Source: Sulfurovum sp. (GTDB taxonomy: Bacteria; Campylobacterota; Campylobacteria; Campylobacterales; Sulfurovaceae). Taken from it: a DNA stretch of 56,334 nt. The notes under the pieces were generated by a model. It had not been told where the DNA came from, searched no databases, and saw only the letters and a list, made by a program, of their open reading frames with translations. The translations under genes and the position numbers were made by a program. Below, piece after piece: positions 34,680-51,206 of the stretch. Within the stretch, counting starts at the first letter, position 1. Each line of letters starts with the position of its first letter. The stretch covers positions 1 to 56,334 of the forward strand of contig JAMOTK010000015.1 of NCBI GenBank assembly GCA_027062365.1. Direction: 5' to 3'.

Positions 34680-35684
34680 ATGCTTATAACAAATCCAAAC
34701 TTTAGGAAACTAACTATGACACGTCATTTTACTAATAATCATATACAAGAAATTGACTCTGCTTTTAAATTTATTGATTTATTTGCAGGAGTGGGTGGCA
34801 TACGCTTAGGGTTTCAACAAGCATTTAAATCAAAATCTTCTTTTGTATTCTCATCTGAAATTGATAAATTTGCAAAAGTTACTTATGAAGCCAATTATGG
34901 AGAAACTCCACATGGAGATATTACACGCATTGCCCCCAAAGATATACCCTCTTTTGATATTTTATTAGGAGGTTTTCCTTGTCAGCCATTTTCTAATGCA
35001 GGACTCAAAAAAGGCTTTGATGACACAAGAGGTACACTCTTTTTTGATATTGCTAGAATTGTAGAATTTCATAAACCCAAAGTGGTTTTTTTGGAAAATG
35101 TCAAAGGGTTTAGAAATCATGATAAGGGAAATACTTTTAAAGTAGTCAAAAAAACGTTAGAAGATTTGGGATATAAAGTGTTTGCAGAGGTTTTAAATGC
35201 CAAGCATTTTGGCGTACCTCAAAATAGAGAGAGAATTTATATTATTGGATTTTTAGACCATGATGTTAATTTTGAATTTCCTAATCCTCTTAATAAAGAG
35301 GTAAAACTAGGTGATATTTTAGAAGACAAAGTAGATGATAAATATACTATTTCAGATAAATTATGGGCAGGACATCAAAGACGAAAGATAGAACATAAAG
35401 CCAAAGGAAATGGCTTTGGATACTGTATTTTCAATGAAGAATCTCCCTATACAAGTACCATAAGTGCGAGATATTACAAAGATGGTTCAGAGATACTTAT
35501 AGAACAAAAAGACAAAAATCCTAGAAAGCTATCGCCAAAAGAAGCAGGAAGATTACAAGGGTTTCCCGAAGATTTTAAAATAGTTGTGAGCGATACACAA
35601 GCCTATAGGCAATTTGGAAACTCTGTAGCCGTACCAGTGATTGATGCTTTGGCTAAGAATATATTTAAAGAGATAAATAAATGA
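34680..35684 (+). CDS. DNA (cytosine-5) methyltransferase, type II system 1
   Basis: The 334-residue enzyme methylates cytosine C5 to protect from the coupled nuclease. Motif I DLFAGVGGIRLGF (35-40 core), motif IV GGFPCQPFSNAG with catalytic Cys101, motif VI FLENVKG, motif VIII QNRERIYIIGF, and IX/X KLSPKEAGRLQGFPEDF and QFGNSVAVPV. The target-recognition region (about 215-275, with GHQRRKIEHKAKGNGFGY) is shared by several GG-containing specificities, but I cannot name the site. An AAAAGG precedes the ATG. It overlaps the nuclease gene by 4 bases. Confidence 0.92.
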   Translation: MLITNPNFRKLTMTRHFTNNHIQEIDSAFKFIDLFAGVGGIRLGFQQAFKSKSSFVFSSEIDKFAKVTYEANYGETPHGDITRIAPKDIPSFDILLGGFPCQPFSNAGLKKGFDDTRGTLFFDIARIVEFHKPKVVFLENVKGFRNHDKGNTFKVVKKTLEDLGYKVFAEVLNAKHFGVPQNRERIYIIGFLDHDVNFEFPNPLNKEVKLGDILEDKVDDKYTISDKLWAGHQRRKIEHKAKGNGFGYCIFNEESPYTSTISARYYKDGSEILIEQKDKNPRKLSPKEAGRLQGFPEDFKIVVSDTQAYRQFGNSVAVPVIDALAKNIFKEINK

Positions 35685-45885: not shown

Positions 45886-46227
45886 TTATAGCGTAACATT
45901 CTCTATAAAATCCACTTCATCATGACGAATAATCAAAGCATCAATACAAAATGCCATATCTATATTCTTCATTTTGATATAATACTGTGCTGAATTAATC
46001 ACTTTTCGTAATTTGGAAGGACTTAGATTATAAATAGGGTCAAAGTCAGCTCTACCTGATTTGACTTCCACAAAATGCAAAACATCATCACGCGTAGCAA
46101 TAATATCCAACTCCCCCATCTTCCTAGCAAAATAATTACGTTCCAAAATCACAAACCCCTCTTGCTCCAAAAACAAAGTAGCCAAAGCTTCACTCTCATC
46201 ACCAAAGATTTTGGGTAATTCTCTCAT
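45886..46227 (-). CDS. UPF0102 (YraN) family putative endonuclease
   Basis: The 113-residue protein has the YraN order: GDESEALATLFLEQEGFVIL, then a nuclease-like MGELDIIATRDDVLHFVEVKSG with Glu39, Asp41, Glu54 and Lys56. YraN proteins resemble Holliday-junction resolvases but activity is little shown. No ribosome site is visible at the ATG. Confidence 0.82.
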   Translation of the reverse strand: MRELPKIFGDESEALATLFLEQEGFVILERNYFARKMGELDIIATRDDVLHFVEVKSGRADFDPIYNLSPSKLRKVINSAQYYIKMKNIDMAFCIDALIIRHDEVDFIENVTL

Positions 46228-46388
46228 AATTGTAAAAATTCTGATTTCATAGGTACTCCTAGTAGTAAAAGTATAACATTTAGTAATTAAAAATAGAATA
46301 GATAACTACTATCTCAAACTTGCTTTGCTATACTTGGGGTTAAATAAATAGTCATGTTCCCAAATATATTAATTTCAAGGACAGTAAA

Positions 46389-47147
46389 ATGAATACGTTA
46401 AGTCAAGAAAGTAGTGGATATTTTATAAATAGTAAGAAAATATTTCAAAATGGGCATACATTCAAAGATAAGACTATTGATAAAGTTTTTGAGTTTGCAT
46501 ACGCAATGACTTTTGGAGAGGGAGAACATAGAGACCATAGAACGGGTGGTACTATGAACAGAAAGAAAGGTCAGATATTTATTAATACATTCCAAGGTAA
46601 GTTGTCAGAATTAGGTGTATATAACACTTTCTTTCAAAGTAATCAAGAAGCGTATGCTAAGTTGTCTAAACCTGATTTTGAGGTGTATGGATTAGGCGAA
46701 TGGGATGATAGCGATATAGCACTTGATGAGATAAAGTTTTCTGTTAAATCAACTAAATTTTATGGTAATTTATTGTTACTAGAGACAAAAGATTGGAGTA
46801 AAAAAGGAGAATATCTTCCTAATCTAAATACAGATAAAAATTGTATTTATCATTATTTTGTATTGGTTAGAATAAAACCTGATGGTGAAAAGATGATGAG
46901 TCGCAATAGATTGTTATATTCAAATGATATAAACAAAGAACAGTTATACTCTCTTATAAAATCAGAAAAATGGGAATATGATGTTCCTGGGTATATTACC
47001 AATGATGATTTAAAATCTTTAATAGGCAATAATTTTATACTTCCACAGAAGTCTTTATTAAATGGTAAAATCCCAATGGATGCTGAAAATTATTATATTC
47101 AAAGTGGGGATATGAGAGATTTTTCTGAATTAATTAAAACCTTTTAA
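46389..47147 (+). CDS. Type II restriction endonuclease, system 2
   Basis: The 252-residue protein contains a PD-(D/E)XK core: KPDFEVYGLG (Pro95-Asp96) and 20 residues later IKFSVKSTKFYG with Lys120. Downstream segments are basic and aromatic. AAGGA precedes the ATG and a TATACT box lies at about 46330. It ends inside the 3' end of the convergent methyltransferase gene (18-base overlap). Type II assignment rests on the motif plus the adjacent methyltransferase; the site is unknown. Confidence 0.72.
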   Translation: MNTLSQESSGYFINSKKIFQNGHTFKDKTIDKVFEFAYAMTFGEGEHRDHRTGGTMNRKKGQIFINTFQGKLSELGVYNTFFQSNQEAYAKLSKPDFEVYGLGEWDDSDIALDEIKFSVKSTKFYGNLLLLETKDWSKKGEYLPNLNTDKNCIYHYFVLVRIKPDGEKMMSRNRLLYSNDINKEQLYSLIKSEKWEYDVPGYITNDDLKSLIGNNFILPQKSLLNGKIPMDAENYYIQSGDMRDFSELIKTF

Positions 47148-48149
47148 AACCCTCTCCATCTCCCTAGCAAAATAATAAACCCCCACAGCAGGGACGGCAT
47201 TACCAATTTGTCGTCTAACCTCTGTATTGCTTCCCTTAAAAATTAAATCATCGGGAAAGGCTTGTAGTCTTGCTCTTTCTCTGTTGCTTAATGCTCGTGG
47301 TTCTTCGTAGTGATATGTCCATGTGCCTCCTCCTCCACTTGCTAAGACTGTGTAGGCAGGTTTGTTTCTATCTAGTTTTCTGTAGATGTTTGACATTCTT
47401 CCTTTTACTGCTAATTCTGGGGGTAGGTCTTTGAAGTTTCCACCCTCTGGAATGGCTCTGAGTTTTGCTGTGGTCGTGGGTAATTGTTTGATAAAATTGT
47501 GATTGATACATTTGGTATTGAGGTTTTCAAAGGCTTCTTGGCTTGTGATGTGTTTGTCTTTGTGTGTGGGTTTTGGTAGTTGGAATTCTTCTTTTATATC
47601 ATCTCTTACACCGATGAACAGTACCCTTTGGCGAAGTTGTGGCACTCCATAATTTGCGAAATTGACTAAATGTACTTGTAAAGTATAGCCAGTATCTTCA
47701 AATCTTTTGGTAATGATTTTAATCGCTTCGCCTTTGTTAGCTGATAAAATGCCTTTGACATTTTCGGCTAAAAAGACTTTGGGTCGCAAGACTTCTACAA
47801 AGTTTACAAAATTTTCATAAAGTTTTCCATTGATGTCATCTTGTAAACCAATTTGTTTCCCTACGATTGAGAAAGTGACGCAAGGGAAACCTCCCAAAAG
47901 TACATCATAATTTTCGTCTTTAAAGTCATTGGGGTTTACTTTTGTGATGTCTTCATTAAGTATTTGGGTATCTTTAAAATATTTATTATCATGTTTGAGT
48001 GTTTCACAAGCGTGAGGGTTTATCTCTAGGGCTTTGCTTGTTGTAAAGTTGAGTTTGGGATAGTGAGTGCCTAAGAAATTGAAATCGCCATGAAAGCCAA
48101 TATCTAAGCCTCCTGCTCCTGTGAATGTTGAAAAAATTTTGAAACTCAT
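47130..48149 (-). CDS. DNA (cytosine-5) methyltransferase, type II system 2
   Basis: The 339-residue enzyme shows motif I TFTGAGGLDIGF, motif IV GGFPCVTFSIVG with catalytic Cys90, motif VI LAENVKG, motif VIII QLRQRVLFIGV, and IX/X ALSNRERARLQAFPDD and RRQIGNAVPAVG. The residue after PC is Val rather than Gln. AAAGG precedes the ATG. It is tail-to-tail with the nuclease gene and divergent from the DUF6471 gene. Confidence 0.92.
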   Translation of the reverse strand: MSFKIFSTFTGAGGLDIGFHGDFNFLGTHYPKLNFTTSKALEINPHACETLKHDNKYFKDTQILNEDITKVNPNDFKDENYDVLLGGFPCVTFSIVGKQIGLQDDINGKLYENFVNFVEVLRPKVFLAENVKGILSANKGEAIKIITKRFEDTGYTLQVHLVNFANYGVPQLRQRVLFIGVRDDIKEEFQLPKPTHKDKHITSQEAFENLNTKCINHNFIKQLPTTTAKLRAIPEGGNFKDLPPELAVKGRMSNIYRKLDRNKPAYTVLASGGGGTWTYHYEEPRALSNRERARLQAFPDDLIFKGSNTEVRRQIGNAVPAVGVYYFAREMERVLKGFN

Positions 48150-48205
48150 GTAAAGACCTTTAATATAGTAAAAAATAAGTTTAATTGTATCATATTAGCA
48201 GCGTT

Positions 48206-48235
48206 TTGTCAAGATAAAATTTTATGTGCTATAAT
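48206..48235 (+). promoter_or_regulatory. Promoter of the DUF6471-miaA unit
   Basis: TTGTCA (48206-48211) and TATAAT (48230-48235) are 18 bases apart, one of the few promoters here with a recognisable -35 box. It lies in the divergent gap to the methyltransferase gene. Confidence 0.6.
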
Positions 48236-48262
48236 TTTACAATTTTGAAGAAAAGAGAAGCA

Positions 48263-48481
48263 ATGAAAGAAAAAGCAAAAGAGATAATCAATAGAGAACT
48301 CAAAAAAAGAAATATTAATTATCCTAAATTATCTGCATTGATGGCAGAAAAAGGGTATGAGTATACAGCCAATACGATTAGGACAAAAATTCATCGTGGT
48401 TCTTTTTCTTTTGTTTTTTTATTAGAAGTTTGTGATAGTTTAAATATAGATATAGTTTGTTTAGAAAAAAGTAAAAGATGA
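48263..48481 (+). CDS. DUF6471 small putative regulator
   Basis: From the ATG at 48263 the product is 72 residues: INRELKKRNINYPKLSALMAEKGYEYTANTIRTKIHRGSF in sections is the DUF6471 pattern, a compact helical domain that resembles a helix-turn-helix (LSALMAEKG, TIRTKIHRG). The frame extends to 48224, but that start would precede the likely transcription start. It sits where a controller gene of a restriction system would be, yet its stop overlaps the miaA start (ATGA). Confidence 0.65.
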   Translation: MKEKAKEIINRELKKRNINYPKLSALMAEKGYEYTANTIRTKIHRGSFSFVFLLEVCDSLNIDIVCLEKSKR

Positions 48482-49377
48482 AAACCATTAAACAACTAGC
48501 CATCATCGGCTCTACAGCTTCGGGGAAGACTTCGCTTTCTATCAAATTAGCACACAAGATAAATGCCCATATCCTCTCTCTTGACTCTTTGGCTATTTAT
48601 AAAGAGATAGATATAGTCTCTGCCAAACCTAGTATGAAAGAGCGTGATACTATCCGACACTTTGGGCTAGATATGATACTTCCTAATGAAAATTTTGATG
48701 TAAGTACGTTTATCAAGCTCTATCATGAAGTCTATGCACACTGCCAAAAAGAAGGAAAAAACCTCATCATCGTAGGGGGGACAAGCTTCTATCTAAAGAT
48801 GCTCATAGAAGGCATAAGCCAAATCCCCACGATAAGCCAATCTACCCAAGACCTCTGTAGTAGTCACTTGCAAAACCTAGAAAAAACCTATCAATGGCTC
48901 TCATCTTTAGACCCACACTATATGTCAAGTATCGCCTCAAAAGACCGATACCGTATAGAAAAAGCCCTACAACTCTACCTACAAACCTCTCTTATCCCCA
49001 CAGAGTACTTTAGACAAAACCCTCCTAAGCCTACTATCACAGCCCCTCTTCCCATCTATCAGATAGTATGGGAGAGAGAGCAGTTACGCCAACGTATTAG
49101 CCAACGTAGCCATATCATGCTAAAGCAAGGACTCATAGACGAGATATGTATGCTAGAAAAAAAATACACACGTACCCCAAACTGTATGAAATCCATAGGT
49201 ATCAAAGAAACCTTAGCCTATCTCGATGGAAAATACGATAAAAAGACCCTCATAGAAAAGATAAGTACCAACACAGCCCGTCTAGCCAAAAGACAAACCA
49301 CCTTTAATAACAGTCAATTTAAGATACTTAATAAAGGGAGTTTAGAAGAGTTTGAGAGGGTGTTACTCATGAGATAA
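48478..49377 (+). CDS. miaA: tRNA dimethylallyltransferase
   Basis: The 299-residue enzyme adds dimethylallyl to A37 of tRNAs reading U-starting codons. It has the P-loop GSTASGKTSLSIKLA (11-18), SLDSLAIYKEIDIVSAKPS, VGGTSFYLKMLIEG and a C-terminal TNTARLAKRQTTFN. Slightly short but complete. Its ATG overlaps the DUF6471 stop. Confidence 0.93.
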   Translation: MKTIKQLAIIGSTASGKTSLSIKLAHKINAHILSLDSLAIYKEIDIVSAKPSMKERDTIRHFGLDMILPNENFDVSTFIKLYHEVYAHCQKEGKNLIIVGGTSFYLKMLIEGISQIPTISQSTQDLCSSHLQNLEKTYQWLSSLDPHYMSSIASKDRYRIEKALQLYLQTSLIPTEYFRQNPPKPTITAPLPIYQIVWEREQLRQRISQRSHIMLKQGLIDEICMLEKKYTRTPNCMKSIGIKETLAYLDGKYDKKTLIEKISTNTARLAKRQTTFNNSQFKILNKGSLEEFERVLLMR

Positions 49378-49383
49378 AGGGTA

Positions 49384-51117
49384 TTAGACCCTAAATCCCA
49401 TACTCTTCGCACCATCAAAGCTAGAGCCTAATTCTTTTTCTATTTCTTCTAAAAAATCTTTGTTTTCAAAGACAGATTCTTCTCTTACGGCTACTTTGTA
49501 GGCTGTATTTTTGATGATGAGATTGATTTGTCCTCCTGTGAGTTCGTGTTTGGATAATTCGCTCATGTCAAAACCTTCTTCATAGTCTGCATTTTCTGGT
49601 AGCATGAACTTCCAAAGGTGTAGGCGTTGTTTTTTGCGAGGTTTTTTGAACTCTATTTTGTAATTAAAACGGCGTGAAAATGCCTTGTCTATATTGCCCA
49701 ACAAATTGGTCGTAGCAATGAGAATGCCTTCAAATTTTTCTATCTGCTCTAAGAATATATTTTGCATTTGATTGTGCATTTTATCGGCTGAACTTCCTGC
49801 CCCTTCGCTTCTGCTTGACAAAAATTGGTCGGCTTCATTGAGAAGTAAAACAGGGTCAACTTTGGCTTTGGTACTTAGCTCTTTAAAATCATCAAATATC
49901 TTGCGTACATTCTTTTCACTCTCTCCTACATACATCGACAATATCTTAGAACAATCAAAAGACAAGATAGGACGGTTAAGCGTTTTGGCTAGGCTCATCG
50001 CTGTCATAGTCTTGCCTGTCCCTGCGGCACCATAAAAGATAATACGAGCATCAATGCCTTTGCGTTTGTCTTTGATACCCCATGCTTTGAGCTTTTTGAA
50101 AACTTCTTTATCTACTTGTTTGATGACATTGTTGAGTGTTTCTCGTGTTTTGGGGTGCAATACCACATCATCCAAATTGGTAGTAGGTTTGAGATATTCA
50201 AAGATGTCTTGGTCTTCTATGAGTTCGCCTAACTTTAGTTTGGCTACTTTCTTTTTTTTCTTTGGGTGGATGATACGTTGCATCACATCATCTTCTAAGT
50301 AAAACGAACGGCTAATACCTCCAAACATATTGAGTACCTCTTCATACTCTATGATATTATCGGTAATAAGCTTCGCCCCATCTTCTAATAAGGCACGGTT
50401 TTTTATCTTTTCGTACTCATCAAAACTAATCAGTTCTATGAGGGTATTCATATCTCTAAACTGCCCTTCTCCTCCTGAGTATTCTTCTTTGAGAAGTGCC
50501 AAAAAGATACGCTTTTCTTTCTCATCCAAGCCTTTTTCTTTAAAAAACTCTTCTACCACGATAGGGGTAGTAGTTATCTTGATACGCTCTTCTATACGTG
50601 TGCTAAGGAGTGTGAGTTTGTTTTTGAGTCGTCCTATACTCAACGAATTATCTGCGAGTCCTTGCTTAAAAGTGGCTATCTTATGCAACAAAGCCACCAT
50701 ATCAAACTGATCTTGCAAATATTCCAAATGGTCAGTATAGGGCTTCACTTCTGGCAAAAATATCTCCAAAGACCCCTCTTCTAACAAACGAAGCAAAGAG
50801 ACACTCGGAGTCACAGAAGTAGATAAAATCTCTAGATTAGAAGACTCATGGGCTTTGATTTGTCCAAAGCTCACTTGTATCAGCCACCCTAAATCCAGTA
50901 GGTTTTTAAGAACTCCTAGCTTTTGTAGATAGAGATAATCATCCGAAGGAAAGTTATCTTTAAGTATCTCCAAAACAGAGAGTTCTTCTATCCCTGATAC
51001 ATAGCGTTTACAGATATATTGTATCAATTTGGCTTCTTCTTTGGTACATTTGAGATGTTCAAAGATACCTGCTTTACGCACATCTTTTGTTTCGATAAAT
51101 TCAATAAGGTGTTTCAA
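49384..51117 (-). CDS. AAA ATPase with N-terminal helical region
   Basis: From a TTG at 51117 with AGGA 6 bases before it, the product is 577 residues. The N-terminal 300 residues are helical, without a recognised domain. The AAA module has Walker A FYGAAGTGKT (about 361-370), a Walker B with Asn in place of the first Asp (LLLNEADQF, about 424-432), sensor ATTN and arginine-finger region FSRRFNYKIEF. The NEAD form occurs in a family of Cdc48-like bacterial ATPases. The frame opens earlier at 51159 but that would lie before or at the transcription start. Client unknown. Confidence 0.75.
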   Translation of the reverse strand: MKHLIEFIETKDVRKAGIFEHLKCTKEEAKLIQYICKRYVSGIEELSVLEILKDNFPSDDYLYLQKLGVLKNLLDLGWLIQVSFGQIKAHESSNLEILSTSVTPSVSLLRLLEEGSLEIFLPEVKPYTDHLEYLQDQFDMVALLHKIATFKQGLADNSLSIGRLKNKLTLLSTRIEERIKITTTPIVVEEFFKEKGLDEKEKRIFLALLKEEYSGGEGQFRDMNTLIELISFDEYEKIKNRALLEDGAKLITDNIIEYEEVLNMFGGISRSFYLEDDVMQRIIHPKKKKKVAKLKLGELIEDQDIFEYLKPTTNLDDVVLHPKTRETLNNVIKQVDKEVFKKLKAWGIKDKRKGIDARIIFYGAAGTGKTMTAMSLAKTLNRPILSFDCSKILSMYVGESEKNVRKIFDDFKELSTKAKVDPVLLLNEADQFLSSRSEGAGSSADKMHNQMQNIFLEQIEKFEGILIATTNLLGNIDKAFSRRFNYKIEFKKPRKKQRLHLWKFMLPENADYEEGFDMSELSKHELTGGQINLIIKNTAYKVAVREESVFENKDFLEEIEKELGSSFDGAKSMGFRV

Positions 51118-51206
51118 TGTTGTTCCTAATAGTGGTGAATGGGTAAAATAATAACACAAGTATATCGCATAGTTTGATAGAAATAAAGAGATAACCTAAA
51201 TTTAGC

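Follow-up and report, generated by a model that had tools for sequence, protein, structure and literature searches.

It has long been asked how a restriction system can establish itself in a new cell without killing it. Among the systems whose control has been described, LlaDII recognises GCNGC and AhdI has a classical C protein. In these two, promoter methylation acts on the methyltransferase gene (M) alone, and DUF6471, the protein family considered here, is not reported for either of them in the relevant excerpt of the source (PMC12707154). According to the same text, methylation of CfrBI's own site, located where the M promoter overlaps that of the endonuclease gene (R), blocks M by drawing RNA polymerase away from it, and frees R (PMC12707154). 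In Csp231I, R and M are described as convergent and accompanied by a C gene (PMC4824078), which lies upstream of R. Finally, RptR is described as repressing type I systems in E. coli; it is a small regulator that heads restriction-modification loci and also occurs with other defence genes (PMC12255303).

We analysed a type II-like cassette in a 56,334-nt stretch of DNA from Sulfurovum sp. (contig JAMOTK010000015.1; hereafter, the window). It consists of a putative restriction endonuclease gene, R (46389..47147, plus strand, 252 aa), a C5-cytosine DNA methyltransferase gene, M (47130..48149, minus strand, 339 aa), and the gene of a DUF6471 protein that we predict to be a regulator (48263..48481, plus strand, 72 aa). 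R and M converge and their coding tails overlap by exactly 18 nt (47130..47147), as originally predicted, while M and the DUF6471 gene diverge from a 113-bp gap (48150-48262). The cassette thus has the convergent R and M genes and the small regulator gene of Csp231I. Unlike the C gene of that system, DUF6471 is divergent from M with R beyond it, is neither upstream of nor co-transcribed with R, and belongs to a different Pfam family. The divergent and overlapping promoters recall CfrBI instead, with GCWGC, the inferred target, standing in the shared region as CfrBI's own site does. On the other hand, the second promoter drives R in CfrBI and DUF6471 here, where R runs towards M from its other end. 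As in LlaDII and AhdI, methylation of the M promoter is predicted to regulate M.

The DUF6471 gene most likely starts at the ATG at 48263, since the start of the longer open reading frame, 48224, already precedes the -10 box of this gene. Its stop overlaps the start of miaA (ATGA, 48478-48481). An AAA gene past miaA, and YraN and PhyH genes on the opposite side, lie outside the cassette. The AAA ATPase (49384-51159, minus strand) gave PADLOC matches to IetA (best 3.1e-33), and scored 105.3 bits against the NCBIfam model of IteA, an anti-phage ATPase, far below its cut-off of 510 bits.

The reading of R and M as a tail-to-tail, type II-like pair is supported by our data. M matched the Pfam family DNA_methylase (PF00145, 2.2e-63) and TIGR00675 (6.3e-59), as expected of a separate methyltransferase gene. 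R had no match in Pfam, NCBIfam, PADLOC or PHROGs, and a scan of 49 relatives gave no family match either. The AlphaFold2 model of R (pLDDT 92.9, pTM 0.90) has mostly PD-(D/E)XK nucleases as nearest solved folds, with Z up to 6.2, a range where a common arrangement alone may show, and Foldseek returned no PDB match at E <= 0.001 (best E 0.98). We found 88 relatives of R in named genomes, 80 of which were kept, and three in viral contigs, making 83 loci. A C5-methyltransferase match lay in the fetched stretch at 67 of these and was lacking at 16; it was convergent downstream of R in 53, and within 600 nt in 36. The model and these methyltransferase-linked relatives point to R as a putative PD-(D/E)XK-like restriction endonuclease.

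Twenty-two of the 83 R loci (e.g. L133:1865-3016 and L177:7202-8368) carried a protein with the NgoFVII_C B3 DNA-binding domain, and 23 a Vsr-like gene. Genome G013 (L183) has R with neither an M nor a DUF6471 match in the fetched stretch, and G014 (L031-L034) holds decayed pieces of R with stops. NgoFVII is reported to recognise GCSGC (PMC4081073). In the manner of NgoFVII-type systems, the R gene of G208 and G251 comes after an NgoFVII_C B3 domain protein, and the M of G212, with 41% identity to ours, has an NgoFVII enzyme gene convergent with it; the window R, however, is of another nuclease family and has no such partner in the window.

R is not the only gene found facing M. In most other loci of the family a gene of about 276 aa, cl2, takes this position (e.g. 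L035:73-822 and L184:7123-7953). It belongs to no Pfam family and, like R, had no Foldseek match in the PDB at E <= 0.001, its list being led by unrelated folds. The nearest structure to its model, which is of modest confidence (pLDDT 73), is the restriction endonuclease 3ndh (Z 8.1), and cl2 is likely to be a second PD-(D/E)XK nuclease. R and cl2 are both present in G015 and L184, and our Sulfurovum genome has no cl2 match.

The tail overlap offers one explanation, raised in the original prediction, of how R and M could be balanced, namely convergent antisense transcription through the 18 nt; DUF6471 would then carry little weight. All four loci in which R directly abuts an M of the same clade (the window, L035, L184 and L177) have the same 18-nt overlap, kept down to 54% identity in R and 62-63% in M, and antisense control has been described for EcoRI and Eco29kI (PMC3874152). 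However, those cases use reverse promoters inside R, 18 coding bases are short, and in 12 further M loci, where another gene converges on M, the overlap varies from -8 to +38 nt. We therefore regard this explanation as quite unlikely. Between R and M we found a single weak terminator match, on the minus strand within the coding end of M (three in the region in total, against 1.0 in shuffled sequences), and gave it no weight.

A search of 175 genomes of the same family at E <= 1e-60 retrieved M in 13 genomes (79-100% identical), and in all 13 DUF6471 adjoins M divergently, with an 89-aa gene in between in G172 and G173. This supports the regulator position originally assigned to it. Beyond the family, M has orthologues in G178 (82%), G194 (77%), G208 (64%) and G251 (63%), besides the 41% relative in G212, and a further M locus, L184, was found through the R search. 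G194, G208 and L184 have DUF6471 next to M and divergent from it. The contig of G178 breaks between the two genes, and their adjacency is inferred from the same promoter block on the DUF6471 side. No DUF6471 was found in G251, which has both M and R, and in G212 DUF6471 lies about 720 nt from its M. Altogether, of the 18 loci whose M reaches at least 62% identity, 17 have DUF6471 as its neighbour (16 seen, one inferred). Because the M loci keep DUF6471 while the R or cl2 partners change, we take the M-DUF6471 pair to be the steady part of the cassette and the nucleases its variable part.

The original prediction had coupled DUF6471 to miaA, and had reasoned that the two would stay together in strains without the restriction system if DUF6471 were no part of it. 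We found the opposite. The stop/start overlap is real, but the contact is incidental. miaA is present in 73 of the 78 genomes of the genus; besides our own, we read 29 of the loci from the 72 further genomes, with up to 1.5 kb per side and some cut by contig ends. DUF6471 was absent from all 29. Up to L073, the only DUF6471 or M loci to contain miaA are those of our own genome, and in L035 the neighbour is panB instead. We thus rejected DUF6471 as a miaA partner and conclude, from gene order, that their contact is an accident of insertion in this genome. No empty insertion site was found, neither the YraN nor the AAA gene adjoining miaA in any of the 29 other miaA loci.

The M-DUF6471 gap contains two divergent promoter matches. 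The M promoter (48184..48212, minus strand) reads TTGACA-17-TACAAT, with TG before the -10 and 11 of 12 consensus bases. That of DUF6471 (48206..48235, plus strand) reads TTGTCA-18-TATAAT, again with 11 of 12 and a TG before the -10, so that its originally predicted strength is real as a match to consensus. The two -35 hexamers overlap by five of their six bases. These are the two best of 11 sigma-70-type matches in 46200-48600; since shuffled sequences average 10.9, the count itself carries no meaning, and it is quality, position and conservation that matter. Within the spacer of the M promoter stands GCAGC (48198..48202), an instance of GCWGC and the predicted recognition site of M itself. 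It is the only GCNGC in 46200-48500, although the absence of others is not significant because about 2 would be expected at the window density of 0.83 per kb. Three features had been missed by the original prediction: the overlap of the -35 boxes, the conservation of GCWGC in the promoter of M, and the broader tie between DUF6471 and restriction-modification genes.

To follow the site we compared 19 M upstream regions, from the 13 family loci and from G178, G194, G208, G251, G212 and L184, in an alignment anchored on the pentamer. GCNGC is present in all 19 (twice in G212), with A at the centre in 14 and T in five, whereas first-order Markov sequences predict 1.21. Among the 16 NNNNN palindrome classes, ATNAT was also found in 19, against 17.4 expected, and TGNCA, which belongs to the -35, in 15 against 4.4. 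For six spread representatives, the product of the chance probabilities for GCNGC is 2e-7. A -10 block, ATTGTA.CATAT, stands at a constant distance from the site in most aligned gaps. In G251 the site is present with no clear -10 block beside it, L053 has lost the -35, and in L044, L045 and L184 the site precedes the 89-aa gene upstream of M rather than M itself.

If GCWGC is the target of M, one might expect its depletion from genomes that hold M. In 399 kb of our own genome, GCWGC occurs 275 times against 436.9 expected (0.63), and GCSGC 37 times against 15.8. The wider comparison was confined to M genomes for which the sample exceeded 14 kb; of the 13 sampled, G130 was dropped as too short, and G142, G157, G174, G178 and the genome of L184 were outside the sample. 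With phylogeny ignored, the median observed/expected ratio of GCWGC was 0.52 in the 12 M genomes and 1.01 in 24 genomes without M. This was the strongest M-linked contrast among the 32 palindromic pentamers (one-sided p 0.00018, ignoring phylogeny), and a GC-matched comparison with 12 genomes lacking M, of GC below 0.40, gave p 0.0007, again ignoring phylogeny. An earlier, smaller test had given two-sided p values of 0.0056 (9 vs 24 genomes) and 0.017 when GC-matched. The pattern has exceptions: GCWGC is undepleted in three M genomes (G172, 0.92; G208, 1.09; G251, 0.92) and depleted in two without M (G121, 0.31; G013, 0.57 in 20 kb). Furthermore, ATWAT and CTSAG also differ between M and non-M genomes, and GGWCC has the same M median of 0.52 (vs 0.77). 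Our genome has 11 PF00145 matches in all, one more of them in the window (34764-35669, plus strand), and the window is also poor in GGWCC and CCWGG.

A probable orthologue of M has been characterised. M.Nph3II (C0176, 41.9 kDa) of Nitratiruptor YY08-14 is described as a 5mC enzyme of GCNGC, with REBASE relatives that recognise GCSGC, GCWGC and others (PMC10734518). The M of G208 is 64% identical to ours, has a mass of 41.93 kDa and lies at 158 kb, where the 176th gene would be expected; on mass and position, our strong guess is that this C5-methyltransferase is M.Nph3II. G208 is one of the three M genomes without GCWGC depletion. Moreover, the measured target of M.Nph3II is GCNGC, whereas Sulfurovum-like genomes deplete GCWGC and not GCSGC. 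Such enzymes can prefer GCWGC, as described for M.BatI (PMC8936443). Considering the conserved promoter site, the depletion and the probable orthologue together, GCWGC is most likely the target of M.

The conserved pentamer might also be explained as part of a DUF6471 operator, with DUF6471 controlling M and itself as an ordinary controller and methylation playing no part. The constancy of DUF6471 beside M would fit, and so would a locus from a Kangiella metagenome-assembled genome (L257), where a DUF6471-like open reading frame neighbours an unlike M (24-25%) and the gap nevertheless resembles ours. In that gap, however, GTGGC stands where GCAGC is found here, so that the pentamer has been lost in the locus with a different M, as would be expected of a methylation site. 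G251 retains GCWGC with no DUF6471, and the M promoter of G212 has two sites with DUF6471 some 720 nt off. Likewise, of 10 DUF6471 loci without this M, nine lack GCNGC over the whole 220 nt upstream and one has it about 125 nt away. Finally, the depletion of GCWGC tracks M. We consider the operator explanation unlikely, though not negligible, and continue to favour methylation of the site by M. The DUF6471-like frame of L257 (7810-8004) is shortened; it diverges from M and its end overlaps the R start codon (ATGA). This is the classical C-R / M layout, seen for a DUF6471-like frame only there, and PF20075 matches nothing in that genome, this frame included.

What the DUF6471 protein may do can be judged from its relatives. 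It matches PF20075 at 1.3e-16, with 60.7 bits against a curated cut-off of 26.8. The helix-turn-helix family HTH_26 gave 16.1 bits (0.014) against a cut-off of 22, and HTH_3 gave no match. HTH_26 was matched in six of 34 DUF6471 members at E <= 0.1 (best 6e-4), which weakly places the family near Cro/C1-type proteins by sequence. Searches with PF20075 were positive in 24 of the 175 genomes of the family and in 30 of the 398 of the order, two sets that overlap. Plasmids contained three distant relatives and phages none, and we found no mention of DUF6471 or PF20075 in the literature searched. RptR is likewise a small regulator at restriction-modification loci, but is described as a 79-aa, Gammaproteobacterial, bZIP-like protein (PMC12255303); no sequence kinship was seen, RptR not being among the matches for the DUF6471 protein or profile in a PDB copy that may lack its structure.

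We surveyed the neighbours of DUF6471 at 45 usable places (24 + 21), which scored above the cut-off and covered at least 50 profile positions, three like-scoring copies in G295 being counted once. A methyltransferase or restriction gene was next to DUF6471 or one gene away in 29 of the 45, a raw count without a background rate. C5 enzymes stand beside it at 16 places (13 in the family, and G194, G208 and G212). An N6_Mtase gene lies directly downstream in six (G003, G149, G097, G436, G500 and G400), with one more in G282. D12 enzymes are found in G295 and G332, EcoRI-type enzymes in G257 and G485, and an N6_N4 enzyme in G421, and in G442 an R.Pab1-type endonuclease gene lies two places down. 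Since 29 of the 45 places adjoin such genes, DUF6471 looks like a restriction-modification-associated regulator family.

It might also be proposed that DUF6471 is a neutral passenger regulator of many defence and mobile operons, fixed beside M by chance. Indeed, 16 of the 45 places were not shown to lie beside such genes, several with only part of their neighbours scanned; among these 16, G178 is probably a positive, G130:C24 sits at the end of a contig and G460 was left out of scanning. Known loci among the 16 include HipBA (G081, G068), AbiE (G058) and Fic (G068). In addition, 13 fetched DUF6471 loci (L037, L039, L040, L042, L050, L128, L130, L131, L132, L135, L136, L137 and L141) have an IS1595-type transposase match, which frequently adjoins DUF6471 in divergent orientation, with a small gene of unassigned family, cl4, after it. 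Against this, 17 of the 18 M loci keep DUF6471 over 62-100% M identity while their nuclease partner changes, and we find chance fixation improbable.

We therefore return to methylation of the M promoter, with DUF6471 as a second input. The stable core would be M and the divergent DUF6471 gene, with the nuclease converging on M. When the system has just entered a cell, the GCWGC site would be unmethylated and M transcribed. M would then methylate the site in its own promoter, M transcription would fall and the DUF6471 promoter would be favoured, as RNA polymerase should not hold both promoters when their -35 boxes overlap. DUF6471, binding in the same gap, would most likely repress M and tune itself. 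The region of the R start contains no GCNGC, and control of R, the predicted cleaving enzyme, would therefore be indirect. Conjecturally, it may come from reduced transcription of M: since M reads towards the tail of R with no clear terminator in between, less of it would relieve interference with R. We give this model as a whole, in which M tilts transcription from itself to DUF6471, somewhat better than an even chance.

Altogether, it is plausible that this locus represents known restriction-modification control in a new form, with two known control modes joined and DUF6471 as a new regulator family. A wider proposal, which we put forward tentatively and at slightly less than even chances, is that DUF6471 constitutes a new family of restriction-modification controllers that differ in sequence from classical C proteins and act for methyltransferases of the C5, D12, N6/N4, EcoRI-type and type I-like kinds. 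Here it would be wired to a methylation-sensing shared promoter as a two-input timer, M switching itself off and DUF6471 on, and M-DUF6471 would form a stable unit into which varied nucleases plug. The locus would then predict two timing devices, usually described separately, within one 113-bp gap. It may also offer a function for DUF6471, a family left unnamed by Pfam, and bring to light a nuclease family that has no Pfam entry and whose target can be guessed.
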